Shown here: positions 50,263-58,925 of the stretch, one piece after another | Position numbering within the stretch: position 1 is the first letter of the stretch | Layout: each line of letters opens with the position of its first letter | Assembly: GCF_008630935.1 (NCBI RefSeq) | Contig: NZ_CP043908.1 | Coordinates: 868,001-932,000 of the forward strand | DNA: 64,000 bases | Reading direction: 5' to 3' | Origin: Thermodesulfobacterium sp. TA1 | Lineage (GTDB): Bacteria > Desulfobacterota > Thermodesulfobacteria > Thermodesulfobacteriales > Thermodesulfobacteriaceae | Position numbers and translations under genes: made by a program | Notes under the pieces: model-generated | Told to the model about the DNA's origin: nothing | Seen by the model: only the letters and a program-made list of their open reading frames with translations | Database searches by the model: none

Positions 50263-51861
50263 TTATCCCCAAAGTTTTATAAAGATTAACGTTAAAATAC
50301 CAGAAACTAAAGTTATTGCAAGCACTGGCAGAATGACCGCTTTGATAAACTGTCCTTCTTCTTTACCTTTTACACCGATGGTAGCGGCTGCGTTGGTTAT
50401 CTTAGCAGGAGTTATGGCTGAAGCAATTCCACCTCCTACTGAATGGGCTGCGTAAATCCACATAAAGGCTCCGGCTCCTACGGTAGAAAGGGTTGCCTCC
50501 CACTGAATTTTGGCAAAAAGAACGTTAGAGGCAGTAGAACTTCCTCCTACAAAGGTCCCCAAAACTCCCAAAAAAGGTGCAGAAATTGGATATAAATCAC
50601 CTAAGGTGTTTGCAAGAAAAAGGGCTATCAACCGGTCCATGTTGTAGTCCTTAAAATAAGGTGTAGGAACGAGTTTTCCATCGATTACATCCATAGCAGA
50701 CCAGGCCATTATAAAGGCTACGGCAAAAAACAAAGAATAGGCTAAAAACGGACCCCAAGAACGTTTCATCCAGAGAAAAAAGGCGTTTTTAAGTTGAGTT
50801 GAAGAAGGCCTAAGTATAAAAATAGAAAAGATAGAAACCACCATAATCCAAAACCATACATTGCTAAGGATGTTTAAGTCTTCTTTTTTATCTGCAAAAA
50901 CATGTATTACCTCTGCATCTCCTAAGGCTGAGGCAAGCTTTGCTTTTATAGGAGCAAGGTTTACAATAAAAGAAAAGATTATAAGCAGGATAAAAGGGGA
51001 AACCGATTTTAGAATACCTAAACTAAAACGTACCCTCTCTTCGCTACTTGGTCCGTTTACGTTTTTCAGCCTATAATAAAAATATACAAAAACCATCGTA
51101 GCTAAACCAGAAATTACTCCTATGATTTCTACAGGAAAAATTCTGGTATAAGCACAGAAGAGGGCAGAAAGGGAAAGGACAAGTCCAGATAAAAATCCAG
51201 GTAAAAAGTTTTTCCTAAGGGCACCCCAACCTCCCACAGTATAAATCATAAGAAAGGCAAAAAAAGGAGAAATTATAGGTAAAAAAAGACTGATTTTAAA
51301 CGTAAAATCCCAGATAAATTCCTCAAGCCCATTTATACCAGGAGGATTAATCCCAAAAGAAAGGGCTACTTTAGCAGGTAAGGTAATCGGGATAGAAAAC
51401 AAGGCAAAAGAAGTAAGCGGGTCATAACAAAGGATGCTGATAGCTATGGCAGCTACTGGAGAAAAACCTAAAATCCTGAAAATCGGGGGGAACATCGCTG
51501 GGGTAACCATTCCAAGGGCAGTACTAAGGGACCCAAAACCCATTCCCAAAAAAAGGGTTTGTTCTTCCTTGGTTTTTACTATTCCTTTAATATAGTCTAT
51601 TAAATTTTTGAGGTCCCCTGTTTCTCTCATTAAAAAGATGAGAAACATCGTAAAAAGCACGGCTAAGGTTATGCCCAAGGCCTTGACAATACCCATATAA
51701 GTAGCCCCTAAAGCCACAAAAAAAGGGGTCTTAAAGTAAACAACCGCTACCAAAACCGCAAGCACCCATCCAAGGATAGAAACAAAGGTTCCAGAGCGAT
51801 GAAAAAAGACCATCCCTAAAAAAACCACCAAAAGAGGAAAAACCGCTAAAAACACCTCCAT
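50263..51861 (-). CDS. lctP: L-lactate permease family transporter
   Basis: A 532-aa transporter with 12-14 hydrophobic segments and LctP-family patterns such as FGSLSTALGMVTPAMFPPIFRILGFSP, CYDPLTSFALFSIPITLPA, APFLGVLGTFVGGSSTASNVLFA and SVGGGIASAITPAKITNAAATIG. Members carry L- or D-lactate and glycolate with protons. Lactate would suit a sulfate-reducing lifestyle, but substrate is inferred from family. AGGGGG precedes the ATG, and two TAGTTAACC repeats overlap the start region. It heads a unit continuing with hldD. Confidence 0.9.
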   Translation of the reverse strand: MEVFLAVFPLLVVFLGMVFFHRSGTFVSILGWVLAVLVAVVYFKTPFFVALGATYMGIVKALGITLAVLFTMFLIFLMRETGDLKNLIDYIKGIVKTKEEQTLFLGMGFGSLSTALGMVTPAMFPPIFRILGFSPVAAIAISILCYDPLTSFALFSIPITLPAKVALSFGINPPGINGLEEFIWDFTFKISLFLPIISPFFAFLMIYTVGGWGALRKNFLPGFLSGLVLSLSALFCAYTRIFPVEIIGVISGLATMVFVYFYYRLKNVNGPSSEERVRFSLGILKSVSPFILLIIFSFIVNLAPIKAKLASALGDAEVIHVFADKKEDLNILSNVWFWIMVVSIFSIFILRPSSTQLKNAFFLWMKRSWGPFLAYSLFFAVAFIMAWSAMDVIDGKLVPTPYFKDYNMDRLIALFLANTLGDLYPISAPFLGVLGTFVGGSSTASNVLFAKIQWEATLSTVGAGAFMWIYAAHSVGGGIASAITPAKITNAAATIGVKGKEEGQFIKAVILPVLAITLVSGILTLIFIKLWG

Positions 51862-51891: not shown

Positions 51892-52222
51892 AAATAACAA
51901 GTTAAATCTTTAGCATTTTTTGCTAAAAAATCAACCTTAAAGGACTTTTTTTTAAAGTAATCTTATTACTATTGAAATCCATATAAATGAAACTTTTTTC
52001 ACAAAAAAAATGAAACCTAAGAGCTCTTATTTCAAGTATGGTTAAGATATTTTCATACATGTATTTTTTTCTCTTTAGGTTTTAAGAGGTACCACCAGAT
52101 GTCCCCAAAGATTTTAAAAATTTCTATTTTCTGCTATTTTCTTAGCTAAATAAGTTTTTTCTTTCTTGAAAAAGAATAATATAAAACTTATTTTTTTATA
52201 AAAACCGGTAAGGAGTTAAAAG
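51862..52222. other. 361-bp divergent intergenic region, lctP to the KaiC-like gene
   Basis: No gene is supported. It holds the TAGTTAACC pair, a 7-bp-arm hairpin TTTAGCA/TGCTAAA (51909-51927), two ATGAAAC repeats (51987-51993 and 52010-52016) and the large inverted repeat at 52148-52193. Promoters for both flanking genes must be here, but none has a convincing -35/-10 pair. Confidence 0.6.
52148..52193. promoter_or_regulatory. 11-bp inverted repeat around the probable KaiC-like gene promoter
   Basis: AAATAAGTTTT (52148-52158) is matched exactly in inverse by AAAACTTATTT (52183-52193). Inside it a second hairpin, TTCTT-GAAA-AAGAA (52163-52176), and the sequence TATAAA are found. The upstream gene is divergent, so this is not its terminator; an operator or a leader structure for the gene at 52223 is more likely. 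Confidence 0.45.
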
Positions 52223-53110
52223 ATGGAAAAGACCCAAGAAAAAAAGGAGAATCTCTACGGAATAGGGGAACCTGATCTAAAATCCATCTATAAGGGTGGA
52301 GAGGCTTTAAAAAAGGCACCTAAACTTTACGGTGTTCCTACAGGAATAGAAGGGCTTGACCCCCTTTTTTATATAGTGGTTTCAGAAAACGGCAAGTTGG
52401 TTAAAAAACATTTAGGAGGAATTCCTGCTTATTCGGTTTTTAACATCACCGGGGTCTCTGATACAGGGAAGTCTTTAATGGTAGAACAATTTGCTGTCAA
52501 ACAAGCTTCTAAAGGAGAAAAGGTAGCTTTTATTACGGTAGAAACTCCGGCTAATTTTTTAGCCGCTTCCTTAGAGCTTAGAGCTAATGCTATGGGCCTA
52601 AATTTTAAGGATTTTGAGGACAATCTCATTCTTATAGACGCTGCTTCTTCAACCAAACTTAGGGAAAGCCTCCCTGACCTTTTAGCTACCTTAGCTTATG
52701 CCATTCAAACCTATAAAGCCAACTTTACGATCATAGACTCAGTAACCGGTCTTTTTGAGACGAAAGAAATGTTAGCCAGAAATGTGGTGAGAAGGCTTTA
52801 TAATTTTATGAAAAAGTGGTATCAAACAGCCCTTTTTGTATCTCAAAAAAGAAGTGGACATGAAGAACTTACCGCTGAGGCTGCCGGTGGATATGCCGTG
52901 GGTCATATAGTTGATGGAACGATGGTTTTAGCTAAGGAGCTTATCGATTCGGGTTTTAAAGCCAAAATGTATAAAAAAGAAATAGGAGAGATAGTAAGAC
53001 TGTTTAGGATAGATGGTTGCAGGATGTGTGGTCATGACACCAAAACCCGGTTTCTTGAAATTACTGAAACCGGGTTGGTGGTAATAAAGGAACCTATTTC
53101 TCAAAAATAA
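52223..53110 (+). CDS. Single-domain KaiC-like RecA-superfamily ATPase (thermophile/archaeal type)
   Basis: A 295-aa RecA-fold ATPase. GVPTGIEGLDPLF is the KaiC-type entry motif, GVSDTGKS the Walker A, KVAFITVETPANF the following strand and FTIIDSVTGLFE the Walker B. The C-terminal part carries a short Cys pair (CRMCGHDT) near residue 272. From memory it fits the thermophile KaiC-domain families of archaea and a few bacteria that are encoded beside a partner regulator, as here. No cyanobacterial kaiA/kaiB is present. GTAAGGAG precedes the ATG. Function probably regulatory; unproven. Confidence 0.85.
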   Translation: MEKTQEKKENLYGIGEPDLKSIYKGGEALKKAPKLYGVPTGIEGLDPLFYIVVSENGKLVKKHLGGIPAYSVFNITGVSDTGKSLMVEQFAVKQASKGEKVAFITVETPANFLAASLELRANAMGLNFKDFEDNLILIDAASSTKLRESLPDLLATLAYAIQTYKANFTIIDSVTGLFETKEMLARNVVRRLYNFMKKWYQTALFVSQKRSGHEELTAEAAGGYAVGHIVDGTMVLAKELIDSGFKAKMYKKEIGEIVRLFRIDGCRMCGHDTKTRFLEITETGLVVIKEPISQK

Positions 53111-53126
53111 AAAAGGGGGGGAAACG

Positions 53127-53792
53127 ATGGTTATACAAATAAGTAGTCCTACCGTTTCAGAGGCAGAGTTAGAGCATTTGGTTAGTCGTGTGTTTTTTAA
53201 AGCCATAGACCTTTTAGGTGGTCTTAGCAAGCTTGCTGAGTTTAGAACCCTTACTTGGTTACCCTCTTTAGCCAGGGCTGCCTTTGTGGTGGTCTTAAAA
53301 GAAGAATACGTAAAAACCGACGAAGAAATCGCAGAAAAGGTAGGGCTTACTAAAAACACCGTAAAAAATATCTTAAGGGCAGACCCAGAGCTTGCTTTAC
53401 AAAAAATAAAAGCCTTTGAGGAATTGGTTAACGAAGAGGTTAAAGAGTTAAAGGTTCACACCGCAGGAGGTATCGCTAAATTAGCTTACAAAGAGATTAA
53501 ACAAGGTCATGAAGCCCAAACCTTGCTACATTATTGTTCTGTGGTGGCAGAAGACATAGCCAAAACTTTAGAAATCCCTTGGGCTTATTTAGTACTTAAA
53601 AAATCTAAAGGACTAAAATATCCTATAGAAACCCCGGAGGTATTAAAAGAAAAGTTTGCCGGACTTTCGGTAAAAGGGGTCTCTTTAGAGGAAATTATAA
53701 CCCATATCCAATACCCTATTAAAAATCCTGCCCAACTTTTAAAGGAGATAAAGGACTATTTAACCTTAAAAAAAGCCCAGAATGAGGAATAA
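53127..53792 (+). CDS. KaiC-partner protein with helix-turn-helix region (probable regulator)
   Basis: A 221-aa soluble protein starting 17 bp after the KaiC-like gene with a strong GGGGGG site. Residues ~62-95 (KTDEEIAEKVGLTKNTVKNILRAD) form a good helix-turn-helix, while the rest is mixed alpha. It resembles the near-KaiC probable regulatory domain that recurs beside thermophile KaiC homologues; this assignment is from memory and not from a search. The C-terminal helix (NPAQLLKEIKDYLTLKK) is charged. It may bind DNA and be controlled by the ATPase. No enzymatic motif is visible. Confidence 0.65.
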   Translation: MVIQISSPTVSEAELEHLVSRVFFKAIDLLGGLSKLAEFRTLTWLPSLARAAFVVVLKEEYVKTDEEIAEKVGLTKNTVKNILRADPELALQKIKAFEELVNEEVKELKVHTAGGIAKLAYKEIKQGHEAQTLLHYCSVVAEDIAKTLEIPWAYLVLKKSKGLKYPIETPEVLKEKFAGLSVKGVSLEEIITHIQYPIKNPAQLLKEIKDYLTLKKAQNEE

Positions 53793-53812: not shown

Positions 53813-53840
53813 TTGACAAAACACACAAACAGGTTATTTT
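53813..53840 (+). promoter_or_regulatory. Promoter of tRNA-Ala(GGC)
   Basis: TTGACA (53813-53818), 16-bp spacer and TATTTT (53835-53840), 22 bp upstream of the mature tRNA. The -35 box is perfect, the -10 moderate. Confidence 0.6.
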
Positions 53841-53862: not shown

Positions 53863-53937
53863 GGGGCCGTAGCTCAGAGGGAGAGCGCGTGAATGGCATT
53901 CACGAGGTCGTGGGTTCAAGTCCCACCGGCTCCACCA
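53863..53937 (+). tRNA. tRNA-Ala (anticodon GGC)
   Basis: Acceptor GGGGCCG/CGGCTCC with the alanine-specific G3-U70 pair, D arm GCTC/GAGC, anticodon stem CGTGA/TCACG with loop ATGGCAT (GGC), T arm GTGGG/CCCAC with TTCAAGT, and an encoded ACCA end. Its 3' half overlaps, antisense, the 3' end of the gene at 53900-55753. Confidence 0.97.
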
Positions 53938-57920: not shown

Positions 57921-58925
57921 ATGCAAGTAATACCGATTGACCTTTACGAAACCTTAGAAGAATTAGACCCTAAAACAAAAACCGCCTTTATTAAACTTGT
58001 TAAATTCCTTGGTGAAATCGTAAAAAGGGAAGATTTCCTTGAACTCAAAGCAGAAATAGAAAAACTAACAAAATCGGTAAATGATCTTGCTGAAGCCCAG
58101 AAAAAAACTGAAGAAAGACTAAATCAGCTTGCTATCAGGGTAGACCAGCTTGCTGAAGCCCAGAAAAAAACTGAAGAAAGACTAAATCAGCTTGCTATCA
58201 GGGTAGACCAGCTTGCTGAAGCCCAGAAAAAAACTGAAGAAAGACTAAATCAGCTTGCTATCAGGGTAGACCAGCTTGCTGAAGCCCAGAAAAAAACTGA
58301 AGAAAGACTAAATCAGCTTGCTATCAGGGTAGACCAGCTTGCTGAAGCCCAGAAAAAAACTGAAGAAAGACTAAATCAGCTTGCTATCAGGGTAGACCAG
58401 CTTGCTGAAGCCCAGAAAAAAACTGAAGAAAGACTAAATCAGCTTGCTATCAGGGTAGACCAGCTTGCTGAAGCCCAGAAAAAAACTGAAGAAAGATTAA
58501 ACTGCCTTATAAAAGAACACAAGATTACAAGGGAACAACTCGGTGGTTTGAGCCATGCTATTGGCTATTCCTTAGAAGACAGAGCCTACAAGGCCCTCCC
58601 CAGACTTCTCAAAGAAAACTTCGGAGTCGAAATAGAAGGACGGCTTGTAAGAAAGTTTGTCGAAATTAGTCCTCAACATTATGAAGAGGTAAACATCCTT
58701 GGCAGGGCAAAAATAAGAGATAAAAAAATCGTCATTCTGGGTGAAGCAAAAACCCAGTTGAAAAAATCAGACATAGATGCCTTCTTGAAAAAAGTTGAAC
58801 GCCTCAAAAAAATATTTCCAGAAGAAAAACTCCTTCTCTGCGTAACCTATCAAACCTCACCTCAAGTAGAGGAATACGCTAAAGAGAAAGGAATTAAAAT
58901 CTATTTCTCCTACGACTTCGACTAA
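57921..58925 (+). CDS. Coiled-coil repeat protein with PD-(D/E)XK nuclease-like C-terminal domain
   Basis: A 334-aa protein in three parts: an N-terminal helical segment (~1-55), a coiled coil made of six identical 21-residue repeats plus a partial seventh (~56-198), and a C-terminal alpha/beta domain (~200-334). The last contains EEVNILGRA and VILGEAKTQLKKSD, the spaced acidic residue and ExK pair of PD-(D/E)XK nucleases. This matches DUF3782-type proteins common in thermophiles, whose function is unknown. Each repeat is exactly three heptads (Q/L/V and L/T/L core positions). AGGA lies 11 bp before the ATG. Confidence 0.75.
   Translation: MQVIPIDLYETLEELDPKTKTAFIKLVKFLGEIVKREDFLELKAEIEKLTKSVNDLAEAQKKTEERLNQLAIRVDQLAEAQKKTEERLNQLAIRVDQLAEAQKKTEERLNQLAIRVDQLAEAQKKTEERLNQLAIRVDQLAEAQKKTEERLNQLAIRVDQLAEAQKKTEERLNQLAIRVDQLAEAQKKTEERLNCLIKEHKITREQLGGLSHAIGYSLEDRAYKALPRLLKENFGVEIEGRLVRKFVEISPQHYEEVNILGRAKIRDKKIVILGEAKTQLKKSDIDAFLKKVERLKKIFPEEKLLLCVTYQTSPQVEEYAKEKGIKIYFSYDFD
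58086..58496 (+). repeat. Six perfect 63-bp tandem repeats plus a partial copy
   Basis: Copies start at 58086, 58149, 58212, 58275, 58338 and 58401, each 63 bp; the partial copy at 58464 stays identical to 58496. Each encodes LAEAQKKTEERLN + QLAIRVDQ. No base differences were seen among the copies, so the array expanded recently or is kept uniform by recombination. Confidence 0.95.

Follow-up and report, generated by a model that had tools for sequence, protein, structure and literature searches.

Two adjacent genes in the stretch of Thermodesulfobacterium DNA that was analysed here (64 kb, referred to as the window) encode a KaiC-like ATPase and a helix-turn-helix (HTH) protein. What might such a pair do in a thermophilic bacterium, and does it act alone? 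A preliminary description of the locus pictured a self-contained regulatory module, whose HTH protein may bind an inverted repeat ahead of the two genes. We found that the pair itself is ordinary and that the inverted-repeat operator story is wrong. The association of the pair with reverse gyrase is a worthwhile lead.

A catalogued pair of thermophile genes

The window comes from a complete 1.83-Mb genome. On its plus strand, the gene kai (52223..53110) was recognized by its open reading frame and by Pfam and NCBIfam matches. It encodes a single-domain KaiC-family ATPase of 295 aa, assigned to TIGR03878 (thermo_KaiC_2). The gene hth (53127..53792, same strand), recognized by its open reading frame, an NCBIfam match and helices in a structure model, encodes a partner protein of 221 aa, assigned to TIGR03879 (near_KaiC_dom), with the helix-turn-helix at about residues 65-83. 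Both open reading frames have a ribosome-binding site. The preliminary description had already placed an HTH gene downstream of kai; its presence there holds, and the spacing is 16 bp rather than 17 bp.

The kai product matched the Pfam KaiC ATPase profile with E = 3e-55 and TIGR03878 with 465.6 bits over profile positions 1-259 of 259, where the curated cut-off is 232.2 bits. The hth product matched TIGR03879 with 125.6 bits (cut-off 65.1 bits) over profile positions 1-91 of 91, corresponding to residues 28-127 of the protein. This score, together with the position of the gene just 3′ of kai, places it among the near_KaiC_dom proteins. As both proteins are far over the cut-offs, the pair is one that the databases describe without a known function. 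Its earlier identification as a known but uncharacterised thermophile pair, with a single-domain thermophile-type KaiC, was thus correct. In cut-offs, gene order and co-occurrence in thermophiles, the window pair is the same as the catalogued TIGR03878/TIGR03879 pair, and there is no difference in kind. What is new relative to the catalogued pair is the association with reverse gyrase, the frequent unlinking in Aquificota and the history of transfer.

Among 61 orthologs of KaiC, D80-T-G-K83 (Walker A), E107 (catalytic Glu) and D172 (Walker B) were conserved, which identifies the protein as a KaiC/RecA ATPase. These strongly conserved orthologs also share the segment R-x-F-R-x-D-G-C-R-x-[CSA]-G-H-D. 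For the HTH protein, almost every one of 69 sequences from across phyla has a recognition helix of the form [KR]-[NQ]-T-V-[RK]-[NS]-I-L-[RK]-A-D-P, so the presumed DNA-facing chemistry of this protein is constrained. The helix-turn-helix was predicted and its helices were present in the structure model; fold matches were weak (best Z 5.4), and no relative of the HTH protein could be named with confidence from fold searches of the PDB. The AlphaFold model of KaiC (pLDDT 62.6) was too poor for detail.

To the left of kai lies a divergent gene starting at 51861. A tRNA-Ala (GGC) gene is found directly 3′ of hth, at 53863-53937, and a promoter-like site TTGACA-N16-TATTTT stands ahead of it at 53813. 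Elsewhere in the window, an open reading frame at 57921-58925 contains a near-perfect 63-bp tandem repeat (58086-58501, 6.6 copies, 99% match), which encodes a recurring 21-residue coiled-coil-like unit.

Distribution and linkage of the pair

Across 30 loci taken from GTDB genomes, the usual position of hth was directly 3′ of kai. The two families were found together in an identical set of 8 genomes among 148 Desulfobacterota and an identical set of 10 among 249 Campylobacterota. Among 121 Aquificota, hth was present in 106 genomes, kai in 103 and both in 96. In 37 of these 96 genomes the two genes were close together; in at least 28 they were clearly not linked (12 with both genes on one contig, and 16 with the genes on different contigs and away from the low-coordinate end). 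In genome G128, for example, kai and hth are unlinked, and unrelated complete neighbours surround each of them. That they continue to co-occur despite unlinking argues for a joint function. The frequent unlinking and the association with reverse gyrase make it doubtful that the module is self-contained.

Five Aquificota genomes (G177, G178, G216, G233 and G237) encode, at an unlinked locus, an additional TIGR03879 protein that is more diverged and scores 78-95 bits. No relatives were found in viral contigs. In the plasmid search, the only match was the megaplasmid of Thermomicrobium roseum (L329 11986-13265), where kai and the HTH gene share 4 bp and a divergent thyX adjoins them. The HTH protein encoded there is shortened to 127 aa, and its C-terminal part is missing.

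Co-occurrence with reverse gyrase

Reverse gyrase is the hallmark protein of hyperthermophiles. We counted its gene (rgy) and the pair at profile cut-offs in 397 genomes (the 148 Desulfobacterota and 249 Campylobacterota) and in the 121 Aquificota. In Desulfobacterota, rgy was over the cut-off in exactly the 8 genomes that have the pair. In Campylobacterota, 13 genomes have rgy, including all 10 with the pair, and three have rgy only. Outside Aquificota, therefore, all 18 pair-bearing genomes also carry rgy; none has the pair only, three have rgy only and 376 have neither. A Fisher test that treats related genomes as independent gave P = 2e-28. This value is too extreme, since relatedness reduces the sample to about two lineages of Desulfobacterota and two of Campylobacterota. 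In Aquificota, rgy was found in 109 of the 121 genomes: 106 of the 113 that have kai, hth or both (it was missing in the other seven) and three of the eight with neither gene. Some of the absences in Aquificota are probably assembly gaps.

Shared thermophily is the main confounder of these counts, since thermophily itself could drive the co-occurrence. The pair might then be a general thermophile regulator or core function that is not specifically tied to reverse gyrase, thermophiles simply keeping both and passing them to one another. Several observations agree with this alternative. The pair and rgy are both near-universal in Aquificota, where they are mostly unlinked from each other, and the pair is not beside rgy in most genomes. 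In the genome of the window, rgy (G000:C1:1808264-1811707) is unlinked from the pair. The two also occur separately: Thermus plasmids carry rgy without the pair nearby, and a search of the T. roseum megaplasmid showed the pair without rgy nearby.

Gene neighbourhoods speak against it. When neighbouring genes were clustered, reverse gyrase (TIGR01054, 1166-1258 bits) turned out to be the product of the gene that follows hth in the Aquificota genus Persephonella and in Campylobacterota of the Nitratiruptor type. The order kai-hth-rgy recurs in nine Persephonella-type genomes, with 50-64 bp between hth and rgy, and in seven Campylobacterota loci, where the gap is 0 to -4 bp, so that the two genes either adjoin directly or share 1-4 bp. 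In another Aquificota genome, G169 (L233 6208-11298), an rgy of the Thermodesulfobacterium type is adjacent in a different orientation, being divergent from kai-hth and 80 bp away. A large gene 3′ of hth in T. hydrogeniphilum was considered as a further reverse gyrase and rejected, as its sequence looks SMC-like. If placement were random, two or more independent adjacencies among 20-40 lineages would have a probability of roughly 0.0003-0.001, by an approximate calculation. We regard a general thermophile function without the specific tie as a real possibility, though one that we lean against.

Evolutionary history of the three genes

Trees of 30 genomes were built with FastTree, and ultrafast bootstrap values (UFBoot, IQ-TREE) were used only to support the FastTree results. 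In the rpoB tree, G169 grouped with the Aquificota genomes G188 and G197 (support 1.0), and the family of the window grouped with its own order. The trees of kai, hth and rgy each joined G169 to the family of the window, with FastTree supports of 0.87, 0.94 and 1.0, respectively, and UFBoot values of 88 for kai and 95 for hth. At the protein level, the reverse gyrase of G169 is 57% identical to that of the window's genome and about 41% identical to those of its own relatives. Thus, kai, hth and rgy have a common history at odds with the species tree.

The placement of the joint group differed among the genes. In the kai and hth trees, it nested next to G188/G197 (FastTree 0.98; UFBoot 100 and 98), pointing to an origin in Aquificota. 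In the rgy tree, it nested next to G128, pointing to an origin in Thermodesulfobacteria. Genes thus moved between the lineages of G169 and of the window's family, perhaps in both directions. The reverse gyrase tree also joined Persephonella with Campylobacterota (1.0); the hth trees hinted weakly at the same grouping and the kai tree did not. Judged from these trees, the two arrangements beside rgy look independent.

The inverted repeat upstream of kai

The spacer between kai and its divergent neighbour contains an exact 11-bp inverted repeat with the arms AAATAAGTTTT (52148-52158) and AAAACTTATTT (52183-52193) and a loop of 24 nt. The repeat is real and, as had been noted before, cannot be a terminator of the upstream gene because it sits between divergent genes. 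It also lies close to a promoter-like site, TTGAAA-N17-TATTTT (52166..52194, plus strand), whose -10-like TATTTT (52189-52194) is overlapped by the right arm, and an HTH protein is encoded in the same unit as kai. From these features, the pair could be read as a self-contained module that regulates itself through binding of its HTH protein to the repeat.

The comparative evidence contradicts this reading. The repeat was absent upstream of all 26 kai orthologs compared, which is the result that the preliminary description had itself named as fatal to the operator. Alignment showed that the kai 5′ spacer exceeds that of three congeners by about 150-170 bp, and that the repeat lies inside the extra stretch (about 52045-52215), of which no strong copy was found elsewhere in the window. 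Two congeners, L007 and L008, whose KaiC is 95% identical, keep a sequence like the right arm and have nothing resembling the left arm. Their similar site reads TTGAAA-N16-TATTTT, and the retained sequence fits the -10 element of TTGAAA-N16/17-TATTTT; in a promoter-motif scan, the TTGAAA-N17-TATTTT site itself scored no better than chance. In addition, the window contains nine inverted repeats with arms of at least 11 bp and loops of up to 40 nt, and when the spacer (361 bp, 76% A+T) was dinucleotide-shuffled, such a repeat arose in 7.2% of the shuffled sequences. The repeat is therefore probably due to chance. We rejected it as an operator, and consider the autoregulated module very improbable.

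Visual inspection and alignment revealed no conserved operator ahead of rgy or ahead of the kai genes of Campylobacterota and Persephonella, nor one that the kai and rgy promoters share. A candidate, TGCAA-N6-TTGCA near the -35 region, was present in only three of the seven Campylobacterota loci and was discarded as too weak.

Comparison with known systems

A KaiC-type timing or clock system is extremely unlikely, since the window KaiC shares the RecA/KaiC fold and ATP-binding motifs with the cyanobacterial clock KaiC but has a single domain and an HTH partner whereas the clock protein has two fused domains, the positions matching the clock autophosphorylation sites S431/T432 seem to read G/H (by hand alignment, as profile alignments stop short), and neither kaiA nor kaiB was noticed in the vicinity.

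A closer parallel is found in archaea. In Pyrococcus furiosus, PF1931 and PF1932, a KaiC-domain protein and a predicted regulator, are targets of Phr and are strongly induced by heat shock (PMC10746257). Like the window pair, they are a KaiC-domain protein and a predicted regulator named together in a hyperthermophile host; unlike it, they are archaeal and were reported under the heat-shock repressor Phr. By analogy, they are probably the archaeal counterpart of kai and hth. We assume that their KaiC protein is probably of the sister, PH0284 type (TIGR03877).

Reverse gyrase has itself been studied in vent Epsilonproteobacteria, and the enzyme and the habitat are the same as for the reverse gyrases considered here. 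In Nautilia profundicola, rgy rises more than 100-fold at 65 °C (PMC2628731). This species differs in that the pair appears to be absent: genome G314, which we take to be N. profundicola, has rgy without the pair. Thus, the pair does not seem to be needed for heat induction of rgy everywhere, which speaks against its being a plain activator of rgy.

A possible role with reverse gyrase

That the pair travels with rgy and sometimes adjoins it in other thermophiles points to a function in DNA handling at high temperature. We give an even chance to the proposal that kai and hth form a DNA-binding/ATPase module of thermophilic bacteria that works with reverse gyrase in the heat adaptation of DNA. 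The heat-shock induction of the probably analogous Pyrococcus genes lends this proposal support from outside. In such a module, the HTH protein would most likely bind DNA, and the KaiC-like ATPase, probably as a RecA-type ring, would set the state of the HTH protein on a nucleotide or temperature cue. The two proteins may form a complex, which under heat would control either how much reverse gyrase is made or how the enzyme is used on DNA. A narrower version makes the pair dedicated to reverse gyrase, as its regulator or partner: an ATP-driven KaiC switch would be coupled to positive supercoiling at heat, and the pair would cross phyla together with rgy. We hold this version only tentatively, at somewhat below an even chance.

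The link between the pair and reverse gyrase was not described in the open-access literature that we searched. Such a link would assign to these orphan genes a role that can be tested directly, and would supply reverse gyrase with a candidate partner or regulator.
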